Under the pieces are notes generated by a model, which searched no databases, was not told the DNA's origin, and saw only the letters and a program-made list of their open reading frames with translations. The position numbers and the translations under genes were made by a program. From Chryseobacterium carnipullorum (GTDB taxonomy: Bacteria > Bacteroidota > Bacteroidia > Flavobacteriales > Weeksellaceae), in NCBI RefSeq assembly GCF_900142785.1, contig NZ_FRCD01000001.1, forward strand, positions 248,001 through 312,000: a DNA stretch of 64,000 nucleotides, read 5' to 3'. Shown here one piece after another: positions 17,954 through 31,586 of this stretch (within the stretch, counting starts at the first letter, position 1; every line of letters starts with the position of its first letter).

Positions 17954-18400
17954 TTATGAAAGAAGCTTTTTAGCCATCTCGGAAATACTTTTTCCGTCTG
18001 ACTTTCCTGCTAATGCTTTTGAAGCAGCTCCCATTACCTTTCCTAGGTCTTTGGCAGACTCAGCTCCGGTTTGGGAAATAATATTCTTAATTTCTGTTTC
18101 CAGTTCTTCCGGGCTCAGTTGCTTAGGCAGAAACTGTTCAATTACTTTCGATTGTGCCTCTTCTACTTCTGCAAGGTCATTTCTTCCCTGGGCTGTAAAC
18201 TGTTCGAAAGAGTCTTTACGCTGCTTGATCATTCTCTGAAGAATGGCAATTTCCTGTTCAACAGAAACTTCAGCACCTCTAGCTTCCGTTTTTAGATTTA
18301 AAATCTGAGCTTTTACAGCTCTCAGAGAATCCAGAGCAACTCTGTCTTTTTCTCTCATCGCTGTTTTAATCGCTTCGCTTATGGTATTTTCTAAACTCAT
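17954..18400 (-). CDS. GatB/YqeY domain-containing protein
   Basis: A 148-residue protein of the YqeY family (MSLENTISEAIKTAMREKD, then LRAVKAQILNLKTE and the C-terminal GKVMGAASKALAGKSDGKSI motif). YqeY resembles the tRNA-binding tail of GatB, which takes part in glutamine transamidation, but stand-alone members have no proven role. The ATG at 18398-18400 is preferred over an upstream in-frame start that would add 18 residues encoded in a repeat-like spacer. It is the last gene of the dcw cluster, as in many flavobacteria, followed by a strong terminator. Confidence 0.9.
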   Translation of the reverse strand: MSLENTISEAIKTAMREKDRVALDSLRAVKAQILNLKTEARGAEVSVEQEIAILQRMIKQRKDSFEQFTAQGRNDLAEVEEAQSKVIEQFLPKQLSPEELETEIKNIISQTGAESAKDLGKVMGAASKALAGKSDGKSISEMAKKLLS

Positions 18401-18430
18401 GGTATATAATTTATCAATGTAAAAGTGTAT

Positions 18431-18481
18431 CAATGTACCAATTTGAACAAGCAATTGTTACACTGTTAAATTGATACATTG
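18431..18481. repeat. Imperfect palindrome in the yqeY-ftsZ spacer
   Basis: CAATGTACCAATTTGAACA (18431-18449) is nearly the reverse complement of 18464-18481, with one mismatch and one bulge. It is built from TATCAATGTA-like units that recur in other dcw spacers. Confidence 0.6.
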
Positions 18482-18490
18482 TTACATTAT

Positions 18491-20413
18491 TTAGTCAACA
18501 TCTTTATTTAAAAATCTGTTTTCTCTTACCTGCATAGATCCATTGTTGTCAGACAGATAGGTGTTGATATTCTGGTCTGATGCGTTGTTTCCGTCGATAG
18601 AGATATTCTTTCTTTTGAAAGCCGGAACAGATTCGAATTCGCTGGTACTGTCAAAACTTTGGTAGCGTGAGTTGAATTCTTTTAATTTATTTCTTCTCTC
18701 CACAATTCTTTCCTGATCAACTGCTTTATTCACAAAAGTGAATTCTGATTCTGCAGATTTTGGCGTTTGAATTTCTGTTTTTTCTTCAAAAGCAGGCTTT
18801 GTTTCAGCTTTTGGTTCTTCATATCTTGTCTGGAAGATGGCTTCAGCTGCCTGAACAGGAATTTCAGTTACTGCACCGGCAGGAGCGGTAAACTCTGCTT
18901 TGGGTTGTCCGTAATCTGTTTTAGGCTCGTTGGATGAAGGCTGATTGTTGACAAAGAAACTGAACTCAACAGGTTTTTCGTTTGAGAAAGCATTCGTAGC
19001 CGGTGAAGATGGAGTATCGTCTTTTCTGGAATCAAAGTCAAATTTGAAAGATTCAATTTCCAGATCATTTGGATCTTCTCCTTCTTCATCATAAGAGAAT
19101 AAGCTGTAAGACTCTTCTTCCTGTTCTTCTTCATTTCTCCAGTCACGAGAAGCGTTGTTAGGCGTATCTTGTTCTTTATCAAAGAATTTTATTTCTGTTT
19201 TAATCTGCTCTTCCTCAATAATCATTTTTTTTTCAGAAGACTTCATCCCGAATTGCGGAGCATCGCTGTCCTCATCATCCAGTCTGAATGTGTGCTTTCC
19301 GCCGAATTCACGGTTTGTTTCAGAAGTTGTTTCTCTTTCTTCTCTTGTTTTAAAAGGAGAGGTTTTTGGAGCATCAAAACTGTCATTCAGACTGATTCTG
19401 ATCTTCTCAGTAGGACCCGCAAATCTTTTGCTGTCGTTTGAAAAACCTGTAGCGATGACAAGAACGCTTACAGAATCTCCCAATTCTTCATCAGCACCGA
19501 CTCCGAAAATAATATCTGCGGTATTTCCTGCTTCTTTCTGGATGTGGTCCATAATAACCCCGATCTCATCCATGGTTACTTCTTCAGCACCACTTCTGAT
19601 CAATAGAAGAACGTTTTTAGCACCGGTGATCTTGTTGTCATTCAACAACGGAGAATCCAGTGCCTTTTTAACTGCTTCTTCGGCTTTGTTTTCTCCAGAG
19701 GCAATTCCTGTAGACATCAGGGCTGTCCCAGAGTTCTGAAGTACAGATTTAGCATCTCTAAAGTCAATGTTTACATCAAAATAACCGGTAATAACTTCTG
19801 CCATTCCTTTGGCGGCATTGGTTAAAACTTCATCGGCTTTTGAGAATCCCTGTTTAAATCCAAGGTTTCCGAACTGCTGTCTCAGTTTATCGTTATTGAT
19901 CACAATCAGTGAGTCAACATTATTTCTTAGTTTTTCAAGACCAATCTCGGCTTGTTCAAGTCTTCTTTTACCTTCAAAGCTGAAAGGAACGGTAACAATA
20001 CCTACCGTCAGAATTCCCATATCTTTAGCTACCTTGGCAATGACCGGAGCTGCTCCGGTACCTGTACCACCGCCCATTCCGGCTGTGATGAATACCATCT
20101 TGGTATTCTGGCCCATGCACGCTTTGATGTCTTCGATGCTTTCAATAGCCGATTTTTCTCCTACTTCAGGATCTGCTCCTGCCCCCAATCCTTCAGTAAT
20201 GGTGGTACCAAGCTGTACTTTATTGGCAACGGGGTTATTATCTAAAGTCTGGGCATCTGTATTACAGACCACGAAATCTACTCCGTAAATTCCTTTTTCG
20301 TACATGTGCTTCAATGCGTTGTTTCCACCGCCTCCTACACCGATTACTTTTATAATGGATGAATTTCCTTTTGGCAAATCAAATGAAAATCCTTGTGTAT
20401 CTATATTTTCCAT
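18491..20413 (-). CDS. ftsZ: Cell division protein FtsZ
   Basis: Tubulin-like GTPase that forms the cytokinetic ring. From the ATG at 20411-20413 it has 640 residues; the longer frame adds 22 repeat-encoded residues. GVGGGGNNA (26-34), the tubulin signature GGGTGTG (114-120), and the T7 catalytic loop NIDFRD (215-220) are intact. The GTPase core ends near 340. It is followed by about 300 residues of acidic, Glu/Asp/Ser-rich linker, far longer than in E. coli FtsZ (383 aa total) but usual for Bacteroidota, and a short conserved tail. The gene follows ftsA in the dcw order. Confidence 0.98.
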   Translation of the reverse strand: MENIDTQGFSFDLPKGNSSIIKVIGVGGGGNNALKHMYEKGIYGVDFVVCNTDAQTLDNNPVANKVQLGTTITEGLGAGADPEVGEKSAIESIEDIKACMGQNTKMVFITAGMGGGTGTGAAPVIAKVAKDMGILTVGIVTVPFSFEGKRRLEQAEIGLEKLRNNVDSLIVINNDKLRQQFGNLGFKQGFSKADEVLTNAAKGMAEVITGYFDVNIDFRDAKSVLQNSGTALMSTGIASGENKAEEAVKKALDSPLLNDNKITGAKNVLLLIRSGAEEVTMDEIGVIMDHIQKEAGNTADIIFGVGADEELGDSVSVLVIATGFSNDSKRFAGPTEKIRISLNDSFDAPKTSPFKTREERETTSETNREFGGKHTFRLDDEDSDAPQFGMKSSEKKMIIEEEQIKTEIKFFDKEQDTPNNASRDWRNEEEQEEESYSLFSYDEEGEDPNDLEIESFKFDFDSRKDDTPSSPATNAFSNEKPVEFSFFVNNQPSSNEPKTDYGQPKAEFTAPAGAVTEIPVQAAEAIFQTRYEEPKAETKPAFEEKTEIQTPKSAESEFTFVNKAVDQERIVERRNKLKEFNSRYQSFDSTSEFESVPAFKRKNISIDGNNASDQNINTYLSDNNGSMQVRENRFLNKDVD

Positions 20414-20446
20414 AACTATGCTTTTTATAATTGACGATTGATGAAT

Positions 20447-20510
20447 GATAATTGATGAGTGATAAAGGGCTCGATGCAATAAGCGGTCTGCTTTTTATTT
20501 ATCAATTATC
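20447..20510. repeat. Imperfect inverted repeat in the ftsZ-ftsA spacer
   Basis: GATAATTGAT (20447-20456) and ATCAATTATC (20501-20510) are exact inverted copies. Both lie in longer degenerate tracts of TGATGAATGATAA type with partial complementarity. Confidence 0.55.
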
Positions 20511-20534
20511 AATAATCTTCTATCATTTATATTT

Positions 20535-21920
20535 TTACTCTACTTCTTCAAAGAATTTTTTTACTTTTTCCATAAGCGACTGCCCGAACGTGAGCTTCGC
20601 TCTTCTGTTTTCCTGCTGCTGGGTAACAACGGCCTGTTGCTCCTGAACTGTAGCTGTCGGCTGAATTGGCTGAATTGTTTCTGTCTGTACTTCAGCAGTT
20701 TCTGCTTTAGCAATTTCTTCTTCTACGAGCTCTTCAGCTTCAGCCCCCTGCTTTTTGTCCCGAATCTTTAAACTCTCCATCAGCAAGCCGATTGAAGTAG
20801 CAAATTCCGGGCCTTTCAGGTACTGGTTTTTATCGTTGGCAATATATTCATTGGCAAAACCAATTCTGCTGTCAAAACCTGTGGTATAATTGGCCAGCTG
20901 ACGAAGGTGTTTCAAGTTGGATCCGCCTCCTGTAAGGACAATCCCTGCGATCAGCTTTTTCTTTTGCTCAAATGCTCCGTAGGCTTTTAATTCGGTGTTA
21001 ACCATTTCCAGAATTTCTTCTACTCTGGCATTGATGATCTGTGCCAGGGTTTTAAGAGAAATTTCCTTGTCCGGTCTTCCGTGAAGTCCAGGAATGGTAA
21101 CAAATGTACTGTCTTTTTCCAATTCCGGAACAGCAGAACCGAATTTTACTTTCAGTTGTTCTGCGTGTTTCTCAATGATGGAACATCCTTCTTTGATATC
21201 TTCCGTAATAATACCGCCTCCGTAAGGGATTACGCAGGTATGGCGAATGATATTGTCTTTGAAGATAGCAATATCTGTAGTACCGCCTCCTATATCTACA
21301 ATAGCAACGCCGGCTTCTTTTTCTTCTTTGGTCAGTACGGCTTCTGAAGATGCCAGAGGTTCAAGCGTAAGGGCTTCCATTTCAAGGCCTGCTTCTCTTA
21401 CACATCTTGCGATGTTTCGGATGCTGCCCATTTGACCTACTACCACGTGAAAATTGGCCTCTAAGCGTTTTCCATGCATTCCAACGGGCTCCTGTATTTC
21501 GCCCTCGGAATCCACTTTATACTCCTGGGGAAGGACATGGATGATTTCTTCTCCGGGAAGCATGACCAGTTTCTTTACCTGATCCTTGAGTGCTTCGATG
21601 TCGTCGTCTGTAATAAATTTGTCCGGATGCTCACGCATAATATAGTCGGAATGCTGGAGAGAACGGATGTGTTTTCCTGCAATACCTACCGTAACTTTAC
21701 GGATGGGAACTCCTGCGCTGGATTGTGCTTCAGAAACGGCGGCCTTGATTGAATTAATGGTTTGTGAAATATTATTCACAATCCCTTTATGAACTCCAAG
21801 ACTTTTGGCCTTCCCGACCCCGAGAATTTCTATCTTCCCGTGTGCATTCCTCCTTCCGACTATCGCGACAATTTTCGTTGTCCCGATGTCCAGACCTACT
21901 GAATACTCTTGATTTTCCAT
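20535..21920 (-). CDS. ftsA: Cell division protein FtsA
   Basis: Actin-like ATPase of 461 residues that tethers FtsZ filaments to the membrane and recruits late division proteins. Phosphate loop 1 is GLDIGTTKIVAIVG (9-22), phosphate loop 2 is IVDIGGGTTDIAIF, and the adenosine motif is IVLTGGGSNLKHL. The 1C/SHS2 subdomain occupies about residues 85-165. A Gln/Thr-rich linker precedes the C-terminal amphipathic helix (LTFGQSLMEKVKKFFEEVE), the membrane-targeting sequence. The gene lies between ftsQ and ftsZ, the usual order. Confidence 0.97.
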   Translation of the reverse strand: MENQEYSVGLDIGTTKIVAIVGRRNAHGKIEILGVGKAKSLGVHKGIVNNISQTINSIKAAVSEAQSSAGVPIRKVTVGIAGKHIRSLQHSDYIMREHPDKFITDDDIEALKDQVKKLVMLPGEEIIHVLPQEYKVDSEGEIQEPVGMHGKRLEANFHVVVGQMGSIRNIARCVREAGLEMEALTLEPLASSEAVLTKEEKEAGVAIVDIGGGTTDIAIFKDNIIRHTCVIPYGGGIITEDIKEGCSIIEKHAEQLKVKFGSAVPELEKDSTFVTIPGLHGRPDKEISLKTLAQIINARVEEILEMVNTELKAYGAFEQKKKLIAGIVLTGGGSNLKHLRQLANYTTGFDSRIGFANEYIANDKNQYLKGPEFATSIGLLMESLKIRDKKQGAEAEELVEEEIAKAETAEVQTETIQPIQPTATVQEQQAVVTQQQENRRAKLTFGQSLMEKVKKFFEEVE

Positions 21921-25696: not shown

Positions 25697-26950
25697 TTAG
25701 GCGATATCATTAATTTCTGCTATACTCTGTTTTTTGCCCATTCCTTCTTCATCGTATATCTGTATCCTTGAGCTTATATTTAAAATAATTCCAAGCTGGA
25801 GGTAAGTGACCAGCATGGAGGTTCCTCCGTAACTTATCAATGGCAGTGGCTGTCCTGTTACCGGGATCAGATTGACCGCTACTGCAATATTCACCGCAAG
25901 CTGTATAAAGATCATCACCCCGAGACTGAGTACGAGGAGCGAGCCGAAAAAGGCGGGCATTTTACTGGCAATCATCACAATTCTGATCATCATAATAAGA
26001 TAGAGACAGATCAGAAATGCAGCACCAATAAGCCCATATTCTTCTACAATCACTGCAAAAATAAAGTCGGAGGCGGATTGCGGAAGCATTTGTTTTAATG
26101 CACTTTTCCCAGGCCCCATTCCGGTAATTCCACCGTGAACAATGGCGGCTTTTGCCTGCATGACCTGGTAGTTTTTAGCTTTTACGCTTTCGTCATCTAC
26201 ATCCGTTGATTTTGCTTTGCTGGAGGTAAATGTTTCAATACGGCTCATCCATGTATGAACACGGTTGCCGCCTATCAGATTGGTGTTTAATGCGACAATC
26301 AGGAAGAAAACAATGGCTACAAAGGAGGAAGAGATAAATCCTGCGATGTATTTCCAGTGAAGCTGTCCTATGATCAGGACAATGACAGAAACCATCAGGA
26401 TCATCAGGGCTGTTGAGCCATTATCCTTTGCTACCAAAACAAACACCAGCAGGATGGGCCCGAAGATGTACATAATGTTTTCAATAGGAAGTCTTTCCCG
26501 TGTTATTTTCTTGGTCAGATATCTGCAGAGATAAATGATCAGCATTAAAAAGGCAAATGAGGATGGCTGGAATGAGATGGGAGTTCCGGGAATTTTCAGC
26601 CATCTTGAAGCACTGGCTCCATCAATCGTCTGTCCCGTAAACATGGTGACTACAAGCAAGACAATCATTAAACCGAGCAGAATACTGCTGAGCTTTCCGA
26701 TATACTCGTATTTGACCATTCCTACAACTCTCATGATGACCAAACCTAAGACCACAAAGAACATATGTTTGATAACGTGACCGGTAGTGGTCCCGTTATT
26801 AACAATATATTCCAGATTTGAACTTGCAGAATATACAGGGAAAATAGAGAAAATGGAGATCACTAGGATGACCATCCAAAGTACTTTATCGCCCTTTAGC
26901 AATTCAATTCTGTTATCTGTGTTCTGTTCGTCCATATTTTTTGTATTCAC
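25697..26950 (-). CDS. ftsW: Lipid II polymerase FtsW (SEDS family)
   Basis: Polytopic membrane protein of 417 residues with about ten helices, the septal peptidoglycan glycosyltransferase that works with FtsI. Signature segments are WLKIPGTPISFQPSSFAFL, AKDNGSTALMILMV (catalytic Asp region), GKSALKQMLPQSASDFIFAVI, EYGLIGA and the C-terminal TGQPLPLISYGGTSML. An in-frame ATG five codons later is also plausible as start. It lies between murD and murG in the standard order. Confidence 0.96.
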   Translation of the reverse strand: MNTKNMDEQNTDNRIELLKGDKVLWMVILVISIFSIFPVYSASSNLEYIVNNGTTTGHVIKHMFFVVLGLVIMRVVGMVKYEYIGKLSSILLGLMIVLLVVTMFTGQTIDGASASRWLKIPGTPISFQPSSFAFLMLIIYLCRYLTKKITRERLPIENIMYIFGPILLVFVLVAKDNGSTALMILMVSVIVLIIGQLHWKYIAGFISSSFVAIVFFLIVALNTNLIGGNRVHTWMSRIETFTSSKAKSTDVDDESVKAKNYQVMQAKAAIVHGGITGMGPGKSALKQMLPQSASDFIFAVIVEEYGLIGAAFLICLYLIMMIRIVMIASKMPAFFGSLLVLSLGVMIFIQLAVNIAVAVNLIPVTGQPLPLISYGGTSMLVTYLQLGIILNISSRIQIYDEEGMGKKQSIAEINDIA

Positions 26951-26996
26951 GTAAAATGTATGTTGTACAATGTACTTTTTACATCCGACATTTTAC
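26951..26996. repeat. Inverted repeat in the ftsW-murD spacer
   Basis: GTAAAATGT (26951-26959) and ACATTTTAC (26988-26996) are exact inverted copies. Between them lie TTGTACAATGTAC units like those of the other dcw spacers. Confidence 0.55.
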
Positions 26997-27005
26997 TTTT
27001 TACAT

Positions 27006-28331
27006 TTACTTTAATACTTGCTCTTTAAACTGTTTTCCTCTGTCTTCATAGCTTTTGAACAGGTCAAAACTTGCGCAGCATGGGGATAGTAAAACGGTAT
27101 CTCCGTTTTTGGCCAGTGACTTTGATATTTTCACGGCTTCTTCCATGCTTGAAGTATCATAAATGAATTCTTTTTTGTCTTTAAAGAAATCTATGATCTT
27201 CGAATTGTCTATTCCCAAGCAAACAATGGCTTTTACTTTTCTTTTCACGAGATCCTCAATCTCTGAATAGTCGTTTCCTTTATCTAATCCTCCTACGATC
27301 CAAACCGTTGGAGTTTTCATGCTTTCTAAGGCATAGTAGGTAGCGTTTACATTCGTTGCTTTGCTGTCGTTGATGTATTTTACACCATCGGTTTCTGTCA
27401 CGAATTCGAGTCTGTGCTCTACCGCCTGGAATGTCATCAGAGAGTTTCTGATGCTTTCGTTGTTGATTTCCAGTATTTTACCTGCTATTGAAGCTGCTAA
27501 GCTATTGGCAATGTTGTGATTTCCAAGAAGAGAAAGCTTATCGATCTTCATGGAAAACTCATCTTTCATTTTTACGACGATCTGATCACCATCAATGAAA
27601 CCACCTTCAGTCAATTTTTCTTTTGTAGAGAAGGGAATCATCTTCGCTTTTATTTCAAGCTTTTCAAGGATATTTTTGCTCATTTCATCATCTTTGTTGT
27701 AGATGAAGAAATTATCATTTTCCTGATTTTCAGCAATTCTGAATTTAGCTAAAGCATATTCTTCATAATTGTAATTGTACTGATCGAGATGATCCTGAGA
27801 AAGGTTCAACAACAGGGAAATGTAAGGTCTGAAGTTCTGAATATCATCCAGCTGGAAAGAACTTACTTCCAAAACATAATACTCATGATTCTCGTCAGCC
27901 ACCTGTTTGGCAAAGCTGTATCCTATATTTCCTCCCAATCCTACATTCAGTCCGTCATTTTTCAGGATGTGGTAGATCAGGGAAGTTGTTGTTGTTTTTC
28001 CGTTGCTTCCTGTGATCGCGATGATTTTGGCATCGGTAAATTCTGAAGCAAATTCAATTTCAGAGGAAATTCTGATTCCTTTTTCATGAATTTTATGGAT
28101 GATGTCTGCCTTTTTGGGAATTCCCGGGCTTTTCACGATCCATTCGGCCTCTAAAATTCTTTCTTCGTTGTGGTTTCCTTCTTCAAACTCAATTTCATTT
28201 TCGGCTAAAAACTGCTTATAGTTATCCTTAATAGCTCCCTTGTCTGAAAGAAAAACCTCCAGACCTTGTTTTTTCGCTAAATAGGCAGCTCCGCATCCGC
28301 TCTCTCCACCTCCTAAAACAACTATTTTCAT
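27006..28331 (-). CDS. murD: UDP-MurNAc-L-alanine--D-glutamate ligase MurD
   Basis: Cytoplasmic ligase of 441 residues that adds D-glutamate to UDP-MurNAc-L-Ala. The N-terminal nucleotide fold has VLGGGESGCGAAYLA, the ATP loop is GSNGKTTTT (108-116), NLSQDHLDQY follows, and the C-terminal domain carries NDSKATNVNATYYAL, GGLDKGNDY and LSPCCASFDLF, the MurD-type substrate-binding segments. It is complete. It lies between mraY and ftsW, with spacers on both sides carrying TGTA-type inverted repeats. Confidence 0.97.
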   Translation of the reverse strand: MKIVVLGGGESGCGAAYLAKKQGLEVFLSDKGAIKDNYKQFLAENEIEFEEGNHNEERILEAEWIVKSPGIPKKADIIHKIHEKGIRISSEIEFASEFTDAKIIAITGSNGKTTTTSLIYHILKNDGLNVGLGGNIGYSFAKQVADENHEYYVLEVSSFQLDDIQNFRPYISLLLNLSQDHLDQYNYNYEEYALAKFRIAENQENDNFFIYNKDDEMSKNILEKLEIKAKMIPFSTKEKLTEGGFIDGDQIVVKMKDEFSMKIDKLSLLGNHNIANSLAASIAGKILEINNESIRNSLMTFQAVEHRLEFVTETDGVKYINDSKATNVNATYYALESMKTPTVWIVGGLDKGNDYSEIEDLVKRKVKAIVCLGIDNSKIIDFFKDKKEFIYDTSSMEEAVKISKSLAKNGDTVLLSPCCASFDLFKSYEDRGKQFKEQVLK

Positions 28332-28415
28332 ATTTATTCTTTTGTAAAATGTATAATGTATAATGTATTAATGTAATTTGGTCTTGTTTTAATACTTGAT
28401 ACTTTACACAAAGTT
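28332..28415. repeat. TGTA-rich imperfect palindrome, murD-mraY spacer
   Basis: The tract TTTGTAAAATGTATAATGTA (28338-28357) with further ATGTA units faces a degenerate inverted counterpart ending in ACTTTACACAAAG (28401-28413). The right end abuts the mraY stop. Confidence 0.45.
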
Positions 28416-29657
28416 TTATCTCATTTTTAATGTGATCAGGCATACAATAGCCAGCACTACACCGATGATGATCATTCTGTTCACGATTTTGCTTTCGTGA
28501 AAACCTCCTTTCTGATAGTGGTGGTGTAATGGGGACATTCTAAAAAATCTATTATTCTGAGCGTATTCCAGCCCGTATTTTCTTTTTCTGTATTTGAAAA
28601 CAACGACCTGTAGCATTACCGATACGTTTTCAATCAGAAAGATTCCGCATAAAACAGGAATCAAAAGTTCTTTTCTTAGAATGATGGCTAAAACAGCAAT
28701 CACTCCTCCAAGCATTAAACTTCCCGTATCGCCCATAAAAACCTGGGCTGGATAGGTATTGTACCAGAAGAAACCGATCACTGCACCTACCATGGCGACC
28801 GCAAAAATGGTGGTTTCCCCCATATTCGGAAGGAACATGATATTGAGGTAATCCGCAAAAATAATGTTCCCGGAAAGGTAGGCGAACAGCGCCAGGGTAA
28901 GCAGTATAATGGCACTGGTTCCTGCAGCGAGCCCATCGATTCCGTCTGTGATATTAGCTCCGTTTGAAACGGCTGTCACGATGAAAATAACGATTGGGAT
29001 AAAGACAATCCATGCCCACTCATGGGCATCTTTATCATTCATCCAAAATAAAATTCCACTGTAATCGAACTCATTGTTTTTGGCAAACGGAACGGTAGAA
29101 ACAGTGATCTTCTCTGTGGGCATGAAGTTCTGTTCTACATTGTTTCTGTTCACCACTTTTGCATCTGCATATTTTCTTTTAACCGTAATGTCAGGGTGGA
29201 AATACATTGTTACTCCGACAATTAGCCCTAATCCGACCTGGCCTACAATTTTAAATTTTCCGCTCAGCCCGTCTTTATTCTTCTTTATTTTCTTTAAATA
29301 ATCATCTACGAAACCTATAGCGCCCATCCATATCATGGAAACCAGCAGCAGAACGATGTAGACATTGGTGATCCTTGTAAAGAGCAGCACCGGAATGATG
29401 GTGGCAATGATAATGATCAGTCCACCCATGGTAGGAGTTCCTTCTTTCTGCTTTTGTCCGTCTAATCCAAGATCACGCACCAGCTCACCCATTTGTTTTG
29501 CTCTCAGGTAATTGATAATCCTTTTTCCGTAAACCAGGGCAATGACAAGAGAAAACAGCACGGCTATTCCTGCACGGAAAGAAATGTATTTCAGCATTCC
29601 CAATCCCGGTATGTGGATTCCCTGACTGGTTAGATATTCGTATAGATAGTATAGCAT
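28416..29657 (-). CDS. mraY: Phospho-N-acetylmuramoyl-pentapeptide-transferase MraY
   Basis: Ten-helix membrane enzyme of 413 residues that transfers phospho-MurNAc-pentapeptide to undecaprenyl phosphate to make lipid I. The catalytic aspartates lie in GFVDDYLKK and [15 protein letters not shown], with the [12 protein letters not shown] and [11 protein letters not shown] motifs further on. A 60-residue insertion (about 155-215, including [18 protein letters not shown]) relative to the E. coli enzyme (360 aa) is usual in Bacteroidota. The start codon is 15 bp from the inverted-repeat end of the element carrying the four-helix-bundle gene. Confidence 0.97.
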
Positions 29658-29671
29658 GTCCTTTTTTTTAA

Positions 29672-29705
29672 TTTAAAAATTTAATTTATTTAAAGATTTA
29701 AAGAT
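29672..29705. repeat. Left terminal inverted repeat of the four-helix-bundle element
   Basis: AT-rich 34-mer containing ATTTAAAGATTTAAA; its partner at 30082-30115 in reverse complement differs at three positions only. Confidence 0.75.
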
Positions 29706-30081
29706 GGGGTTTCTCCATATTTTCACTTAAATACTTAATAAAGTTTGAAATATTAGAAGAAACTTCCCGTGAAAGATTAATGATTTCCTCTGCTTTATTT
29801 TCATCTCCTAATTTTAATCTTTTACTTACAATCATCATACTTCTAACTTCGGCACAACTGCCTTTTGCAATTTTTAAATATTTAATAAATTGTCTGTTAT
29901 TATTATATTCTGAGCCTTCAGCAATATTGTTGGATATTGAAAATCCGGCTCTTTTTATTTGGTTATTAAATTCAAATTCTTTTTCTAAATTTTCGCTTCT
30001 GATAAACTGATAAACTTTTTCAATAAGATCTAAACTCTTGATATAAACCGGAAAATTTTCAAAATTTTTAGCCATCATCAA
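29698..30081 (-). CDS. Four-helix-bundle protein (TIGR02436/S23 IVS-protein family)
   Basis: A 127-residue all-helical protein with the family signature: FENFPVYIKSLDLIEKVYQF at the start, QIKRAGFSISNNIAEGSEY (about 44-62) and FIKYLKIAKGSCAEVRSM (about 65-82). This family includes proteins encoded in 23S rRNA intervening sequences and the Avd accessory protein of diversity-generating retroelements; its members form basic pentamers, and their cellular role is unclear. Here it sits inside the dcw cluster between murE and mraY, co-directional with both and flanked by long terminal inverted repeats. It is probably an inserted passenger rather than a division gene. Confidence 0.9.
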   Translation of the reverse strand: MMMAKNFENFPVYIKSLDLIEKVYQFIRSENLEKEFEFNNQIKRAGFSISNNIAEGSEYNNNRQFIKYLKIAKGSCAEVRSMMIVSKRLKLGDENKAEEIINLSREVSSNISNFIKYLSENMEKPHL

Positions 30082-30115
30082 ATTTTTAAATCTTTAAATG
30101 AATTAAATTTTTCAA
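30082..30115. repeat. Right terminal inverted repeat of the four-helix-bundle element
   Basis: Inverted partner of 29672-29705 (31 of 34 matches). It begins one base after the gene's start codon region and ends 10 bp before the murE stop codon. Confidence 0.75.
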
Positions 30116-30125
30116 TCTTACTTTT

Positions 30126-31586
30126 TTATTTACTCATTAACTTCCAAAGTTCGATGATCGTTTCTTTGTCGTCAAAGTGATGTTTCACACCATTCATGTC
30201 CTGATAGGTTTCATGTCCTTTTCCGGCTACTAAAACAATATCTTTTGGCTCTGCAAACTTGATCGCCATTTTGATGGCTTCTCTTCTGTCCGGAATTGAA
30301 GTGTATTTGCTGAAATTCTGAGATTCAACACCGGCTTCAATTTCTTTGATGATCTGTGCGGGATCTTCCGTTCTCGGATTGTCTGAAGTGATGATTGCCA
30401 GTGTAGATTTTCTGGTGGCAATATTTCCCATTTCAGGTCTTTTGGAGTGATCTCTATCTCCTCCGCATCCGAAAACTGTAATCAGTCTTTCGTTTTTGGT
30501 TCTGATATCATTGATGCTGTCCAGAATGTTTTCTAAAGCATCCGGAGTGTGTGCATAATCTACGATAAAGAATATTCCGCCATCAGATTTGAAGGTTTCA
30601 AATCTTCCTGAGACTCTTTTTAGCTTACTGATCGCCTGTAAAATTTCGTCCTGCTCAAAACCTAGTTCTGATGCAATTCCGAAAACCAGCAGTAGATTAT
30701 AAACATTGAACCTTCCCGTTAATGTCGTCCAGAATTCTTTTCCGTTGAAATTCAACAGCATCCCGTTGAAGTCAATTTCTAAAGATTTTCCGTGGTAATC
30801 TGCCATCGTTTTCAGGGCATAAGATTTTTTCTTTGCCTTGGTATTCTGAAGCATGACCATTCCGTTTTTGTCATCCACATTTGTTATGGCTACGGCATTG
30901 TCTTCAAGTCCATCGAAAAATCTTTTTTTCGTTTTCAGATATTCATTGAATGTTTTATGATAATCCAGGTGATCGTGGGTAAGGTTAGTGAATCCTGCGA
31001 TTTTAAAATGCAGACCTTCAATTCTGTTCTGCGCAATTCCATGGGAGCTTACTTCCATAAAAGCGAATTCACAACCTTTTTCAACCGCCTGGGCTAAAAT
31101 TTTATTGATGGTAATCACATCCGGAGTGGTATGTGTAGCTGGAATAATTTCATCTGCAATTCTGATTTCCACTGTGGAAAGCAATGCTGAATCATAACCT
31201 AAATTTTGGAATACATCAAAAAGAAGGGTAGATACTGATGTTTTTCCATTGGTTCCGGTAACGCCTATCAATTTAAGTTTCTGAGATGGGTTTCCGTAAA
31301 AGTTGGATGCCAGATGTCCCAAAGTCTTAGATGAATCTTTCACCTTTATGTAGGTTACATTTCCATCCATTGTTTCAGGGAATTCTTCACAAACAACTGC
31401 TTTTGCACCTTTTTCAACAGATGATGCAATGTATGAATGTCCGTCTGCAACGGTTCCTCTCACTGCAACGTAGAGTGAGTTTTCCGTGATCTTTCTGCTG
31501 TCGAAAACCAATTCTGAAACCTCACGGGCATCGTCGCCGTGAATTTCTAAAACTGGGATTCTTTTTAATAATTCTGTTATTATCAT
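30126..31586 (-). CDS. murE: UDP-MurNAc-tripeptide synthetase MurE (meso-DAP type)
   Basis: Cytoplasmic ligase of 486 residues that adds the third stem-peptide residue. ATP loop GTNGKTS (111-117), the HTTPD motif that binds the UDP-MurNAc part, and GCGGDRDHSKRPEMG are present. The specificity motif DNPR (402-405, SDNPRTEDP) is the one that binds meso-diaminopimelate rather than lysine, so the peptidoglycan is predicted to be of the A1-gamma, meso-DAP type. It lies between ftsI and the inserted four-helix-bundle gene. murF is not in the window, as in many flavobacteria. Confidence 0.97.
   Translation of the reverse strand: MIITELLKRIPVLEIHGDDAREVSELVFDSRKITENSLYVAVRGTVADGHSYIASSVEKGAKAVVCEEFPETMDGNVTYIKVKDSSKTLGHLASNFYGNPSQKLKLIGVTGTNGKTSVSTLLFDVFQNLGYDSALLSTVEIRIADEIIPATHTTPDVITINKILAQAVEKGCEFAFMEVSSHGIAQNRIEGLHFKIAGFTNLTHDHLDYHKTFNEYLKTKKRFFDGLEDNAVAITNVDDKNGMVMLQNTKAKKKSYALKTMADYHGKSLEIDFNGMLLNFNGKEFWTTLTGRFNVYNLLLVFGIASELGFEQDEILQAISKLKRVSGRFETFKSDGGIFFIVDYAHTPDALENILDSINDIRTKNERLITVFGCGGDRDHSKRPEMGNIATRKSTLAIITSDNPRTEDPAQIIKEIEAGVESQNFSKYTSIPDRREAIKMAIKFAEPKDIVLVAGKGHETYQDMNGVKHHFDDKETIIELWKLMSK

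Follow-up and report, generated by a model that had tools for sequence, protein, structure and literature searches.

The spacer between murE and mraY in Chryseobacterium carnipullorum holds a gene of the 23S rRNA intervening-sequence (IVS) protein family enclosed by two long inverted arms, and the site most likely belongs to a far broader pattern resembling IVS elements in mRNA operons. The anatomy of this unit is firm. Whether the unit belongs to a class of operon-spacer IVS elements, in which an ORF of the 23S-IVP family is looped between inverted and mostly degenerate 7- or 8-mer arms, we regard as an evenly balanced question.

In the window (the whole stretch of 64,000 nucleotides analysed here), the listed ORF at 29698..30081 on the reverse strand begins with TTG, with ATG codons immediately after, and was matched by the PF05635 profile (E 1.7e-26; 93 bits against a curated cut-off of 33.8) and by TIGR02436 (23S_rRNA_IVP, four helix bundle protein; E 5.6e-27; 94.1 bits against a cut-off of 24). 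Its neighbours on the same strand, murE upstream (30126..31586) and mraY downstream (28416..29657), both scored above the NCBIfam cut-offs. An inverted-repeat search returned two arms of 35 nt each, 91% complementary and 376 nt apart, which are the same pair that an earlier note on this DNA had given as 34-bp repeats matching at 31 of 34 positions. The murE-side arm (30082..30116; the 5' arm in the transcript) adjoins the ORF start and lies 9 nt from the murE stop codon, and the mraY-side arm (29671..29705; the 3' arm in the transcript), a period-8 array, overlaps the ORF stop codon at 29698-29700 and lies 13 nt from the mraY start. The loop between the arms is filled by the PF05635 ORF, and so the architecture that the note had read from the letters, with an IVS-family gene between murE and mraY, its stop codon inside the left repeat, and inverted ends as in rRNA IVSs, was borne out in each of these respects. 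Moreover, this arm pair scores 27.5, as against a mean of 8.93 and a maximum of 13 for mismatched pairs drawn from eight copies in the same genome, a control that rules out chance pairing of AT-rich sequence. The stem-loop that the note had anticipated is recovered when the RNA of the spacer is folded by prediction: MFE and centroid structures alike pair the arms, with a modest fold energy (z -1.97; 4 of 100 shuffles equally good). At E 0.01, neither PADLOC nor PHROGs gave a match, and a defence or phage origin was accordingly rejected.

The AlphaFold2 model of the family protein (mean pLDDT 92.2) has four helices, and its nearest solved structures, 2gsc (E 6.7e-6) and 2rld, place it in the four-helix-bundle fold. 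The same fold is shared by Avd of the diversity-generating retroelements (DGRs), with structure 4dwl matching the model at E 0.1, probability 1.00, and TM 0.72/0.84, and by the DGR ribonucleoprotein structures 8ub7 and 8ube; a passage of PMC10053308 likewise compares PF05635 to Avd. Unlike a DGR, however, the murE-mraY spacer contains the family ORF only, with no adjacent reverse transcriptase, template, or variable repeat, the neighbours being murE and mraY.

Occupancy of this spacer varies across the genus. From 60 genomes, we extracted 58 murE-mraY spacers and left out the two without an adjacent mraY; in L104 and L105 a gene other than mraY comes after murE, and the apparent 271-nt spacer of L106 is due to a split murE. 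The gene type of the window, with the same arm type, was found in 15 of the 58 spacers. By eye, five others (L039, L077, L078, L079, and L103) hold a different PF05635 protein (Pfam match 7.6e-13) with quite different arms, and L037 retains a shortened remnant of this second gene type. At least 10 spacers judged by eye (L025, L033, L034, L041, L042, L044, L088, L090, L091, and L098) have no gene, yet carry inverted arrays resembling those of the second type, and the L097 spacer resembles the first type minus its gene. Several spacers are only 18-50 nt long, and close relatives alternate between occupied and empty states; the empty spacers for which the earlier note had suggested looking are therefore present in relatives, as are alternative ones. 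In L087 and L096, the place of the family gene is taken by an unrelated small ORF whose N-terminus includes a hydrophobic stretch, and the one tested of the two (L087) gave no Pfam match. Divergence of the murE-mraY family gene broadly tracks that of murE and of mraY (Spearman 0.52 and 0.54), and in 15 of 105 pairs the gene is more alike than both flanks by more than 2 points. By eye, the spacers of relatives align too poorly for a clean definition of an empty site or a target-site duplication.

Matches to PF05635 occur in all 40 of 40 genus genomes, at 1 to 18 per genome, and number 10 in the genome of the window. They occupy operon junctions that we take, from recognition of the translations, to be carA-carB, the neighbourhood of nadD, and positions beside fatty-acid oxidation and metH genes, and the same junctions hold family genes in many genomes of the genus. 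At carA-carB (50 of 60 loci inspected), one family gene occurs in two versions, orthologs of about 70-75% identity, that are bounded by wholly different arm types. Another family gene (Pfam 2.7e-21) is also seen at this junction, as are gene-less remnants of arms. Unrelated elements occupy the same junctions as well. Here, we observed a Y1_Tnp (IS200-like) ORF with nearby REP-like repeats in four carA-carB spacers (L230, L244, L263, and L264, with the Pfam match made for L230 only), at the very junction that holds family genes in relatives. A recurrent palindrome at carA-carB (e.g. L226, L235, and L246) begins TTTGTCATTCTGA and ends GGAATGACAA, and in some cases a right-hand heptamer arm remains behind it.

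Beyond the genus, we compared the two arms of each locus with one another and with arms of other loci in three sets, whose members (148 loci in all) are similarity-ranked matches rather than a random draw. The first set came from a scan of named genomes in many phyla and took the best 80 of more than 580 candidates, 79 of them usable and one dropped for short flanks; here, own arms scored a mean of 16.89 against 8.4 across loci, with 9.39 as the highest of 2000 permutation means. The second, independent set (42 loci, after 8 of 50 were dropped as already used) gave 16.25 against 8.68, and the third (29 family loci, after 1 of 30 was dropped for want of a flank or stop) gave 20.55 against 8.53. 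For the 148 loci combined, the means were 17.35 and 8.37. Own-arm scores exceeded the 95th percentile of cross-locus scores at 117 of the 148 loci and fell short of this at 31, the own partner ranked first among 148 at 63 loci, and scores above 15 were reached by 81 of 148 own pairs as compared with 0.96% of cross pairs.

Arm type differs between loci even inside one genome: in a same-genome control, 20 loci had an own-arm mean of 19.92, whereas 36 cross pairs averaged 8.46 and did not exceed 11.0. The arms are therefore not conserved transposon ends, and this bears directly on the suggestion of the earlier note that the unit may be a mobile element bounded by terminal inverted repeats. A conventional mobile element of this kind, its ends recognised by a transposase, would account for the inverted ends, the multiple copies, and the patchiness and exchange of occupants at a single site, and the ten copies in the genome and the patchy, alternative, and empty spacers agree with the note. 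But the arms are not conserved terminal repeats, as copies in one genome do not share ends; the spacer encodes the family ORF and no transposase, and gene-less forms would have to draw on one supplied in trans; and a gene divergence that tracks murE and mraY argues against a burst of recent transposition. We consider such an element quite improbable.

In RAYT/REP systems, a single gene lies between inverted repeats and many repeat pairs exist as gene-free copies. The operon units may be likened to these by analogy, since they too have a gene between inverted repeats and gene-free copies, although their repeat type varies between loci and their protein is not a Y1 transposase, even if a Y1_Tnp ORF does sit in the carA-carB spacer of some relatives.

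Matching of arms is not shared by other ORFs at the same loci, as 48 non-adjacent control ORFs had a mean arm score of 9.2 and only 3 of 48 scored above 15. Among these three, L124 is itself family-like by eye and L135 is a DUF559. As a comparison family from the same phylum sample, DUF559 (26 loci, after 4 of 30 were dropped for want of a flank or stop) also has inverted flanks, with 13.71 for own against 10.12 for cross pairs. The DUF559 flanks (L398-L427) are mostly C/G-tract palindromes whose sequences resemble one another from locus to locus, and may represent a separate mobile unit. Because these flanks differ from the arms of the PF05635 family, we rejected the notion that small orphan genes in general have such arms.

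As for the geometry within operons, both neighbours were called at 133 loci; at 113 of these (59/70, 33/37, and 21/26 in the three sets) the family gene runs in the same direction as its two neighbours, and at only 7 is it antisense to both (p 1e-25). For the 58 clear-arm loci whose neighbours are co-directional, the distance between the upstream stop codon and the outer arm has a median of 0.5 nt and stays within 6 nt at 36 of the 58, as compared with a median of 17 nt and 3 of 26 for the weak-arm loci. The right arm lies a median of 13 nt from the next start, a figure biased short by the choice of a start codon next to the arm. If the arms do pair, about 500 nt would be looped out and a short stop-to-start junction restored. 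For the murE-mraY unit, the mechanism that we propose would have it co-transcribed with murE and mraY, and its arms pairing in the mRNA to loop out the ORF, which would leave about 22 nt between the stop codon of murE and the start codon of mraY, much like the empty junctions of relatives. The insertion would thereby be nearly harmless, and this would explain both the sense orientation and the flush arms. More speculatively, and by analogy with rRNA IVSs, RNase III may cut the stem, and the family protein, given its Avd-matching fold, might act on the RNA of the element.

The arms themselves are mostly degenerate arrays of 7- or 8-mers. Period 7 or 8 was seen at 111 of 148 loci at a threshold of at least 18/28 matches and at 82 of 148 at 20/28, whereas lags 5, 6, 9, and 10 together gave 13 of 148 loci at 18/28 and 9 at 20/28. 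Within the same genome set, lag-7 arrays flank 17 of 29 PF05635 loci and 1 of 26 DUF559 loci. Similar arrays also occur without a gene: in 464 kb of the window's contig, gene-free arrays with a nearby inverted partner lie between co-directional genes, and such pairs are present in four of the window's spacers that belong to the dcw cluster or lie close to it. In the array scan, these were the mraY-murD spacer (28330..28410; fold z -2.43 for 28332-28415), the murD-ftsW spacer (26951..27007; fold z -3.10 for 26945-27010, with a partner score of only 10), and two further sites between co-directional genes, one with inverted heptamer arrays (20422..20535; fold z -2.81 for 20415-20540) and one with octamer-type arrays (18407..18497; fold z -3.22 for 18400-18500). 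To see whether the arrays depend on the family in trans, two sets of 20 genomes from one phylum were compared: period-7/8 arrays were found in none of the 20 without the family and in 10 of the 20 rich in family genes. GC content differs between these sets (about 0.38-0.64 without and 0.35-0.45 with many), their GC overlap includes only two of the genomes that lack the gene, and the totals include 3 of 40 genomes with contigs reading N only. Heptamer arrays are exceptionally dense in a single 20-kb stretch (L350), which at 20/28 accounts for 10 of the 16 lag-7 arrays counted in the first sample of many-copy genomes.

Whether paired arms coevolve base by base was assessed within six ortholog sets that share an arm type, and such coevolution was mostly absent. 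In four of the six, own arms scored the same as arms taken from orthologs (p 0.79 for murE-mraY, 0.58 for nadD, 0.98 for AGGT, and 1.0 for TTAGA); the glycine-type set was borderline (p 0.049), and carA-carB was significant (p 0.003) because two arm types occur there. Since the arms of orthologs are interchangeable in score in these four sets, any selection acts less on the individual pair than on the type of repeat; otherwise, homogenisation of the arms would take place at the DNA level. In a rival reading, replication slippage and template switching create the degenerate heptamer arrays and palindromes of operon spacers, and the gene merely sits in or inserts into the hairpin loop, with arms that have no RNA role. 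This agrees with the lack of base-level covariation and with the gene-free array pairs in the window's genome and in the murE-mraY spacers of relatives, and passages of PMC4692102 describe heptamer arrays of Xanthomonas as convergent pairs, with 75 cases in one strain. Slippage alone, however, does not predict the sense bias or the flush arms, and the arrays are specific to the family when set against the DUF559 flanks. We judge a purely DNA-level origin to be rather doubtful.

Where intact, the murE-mraY family protein evolves under purifying selection (median dN/dS 0.076 in 21 pairs among 8 intact orthologs). Together with the recurrence of family genes at given junctions across many genomes of the genus, and with the gene-free hairpins in the same operon, this would suit a domesticated host gene, whose hairpin tunes the expression or stability of an operon segment with the protein as trans-acting partner. 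Against this, the frame is interrupted in 5 of the 15 window-type copies, and the protein is therefore dispensable in places; moreover, occupancy is patchy between close relatives, and unrelated elements are found in the same junctions. On balance, domestication appears unlikely.

Returning to the likeness with IVSs, the same protein family is found in the inverted-repeat loop of ORF-bearing 23S and 16S rRNA IVSs with S23p/IVP, as in Coxiella, Leptospira, and CPR bacteria. For the Coxiella 23S IVS, the relevant sections of PMC4990558 describe terminal inverted repeats that form a 28-bp stem, excision by RNase III, and tandem heptamers (GACAGAT) preceding the family ORF. Portions of PMC11270868 report several insertion sites in 16S and 23S that carry IVP ORFs and, for CPR bacteria, ORF-containing and ORF-less rRNA insertions, mainly LAGLIDADG ones, at the same sites. 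In contrast to an rRNA IVS, which sits in an rRNA gene, the unit in the window lies in the spacer of a protein-coding operon, and the operon units are sense-oriented, flush with stop codons, and of locus-specific arm type. A source in 23S rRNA family genes was rejected for 208 family loci (178 + 30), as the 23S locus of the window's genome (L397), the sole probe, found no blastn match among them, with L326 as positive control.

The suggestion of the earlier note that such an element is not described outside rRNA stands only in part. Family genes outside rRNA are in print, with 18 in cas loci, including one between cmr3 and cmr2, in the sections consulted of PMC3936711, and one between guanylate kinase and nadD of Flavobacterium columnare in those of PMC5524665. 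But our search of the open-access literature found no link of the family to locus-specific inverted heptamer arms in operon spacers. Intergenic tandem 7- and 8-mers, some in inverted pairs as here, are described in parts of PMC4692102, PMC4679880, and PMC2700814, among them the heptamers of Xanthomonas (GGGAATC) and Beggiatoaceae (TAACTGA) and the hepta- and octamers of Geobacter, though these papers draw no association with PF05635, and neither 'S23' nor 'helix bundle' appears in the main text of PMC4692102 or PMC4679880, or likewise in PMC2700814.

Taken more broadly, IVS elements could tentatively be viewed as widespread selfish operon units that fold themselves out of the mRNA and restore the junction, and of which the solitary heptamer arrays would be footprints or gene-less derivatives. 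In such units, an Avd-fold protein would be encoded in a loop closed by heptamer arms made or remodelled at each insertion site, which would give each insertion a matching stem of its own. In two phylum samples, 157 of 198 genomes and 87 of 148, respectively, have PF05635, and the IVS-like reading offers one frame for three puzzles, namely the 'four helix bundle' genes, the degenerate heptamers that litter intergenic regions, and the origin of rRNA IVSs. It predicts RNA structure inside essential operons, and family genes found in operons, for instance in cas loci, may accordingly be insertions and not functional partners.
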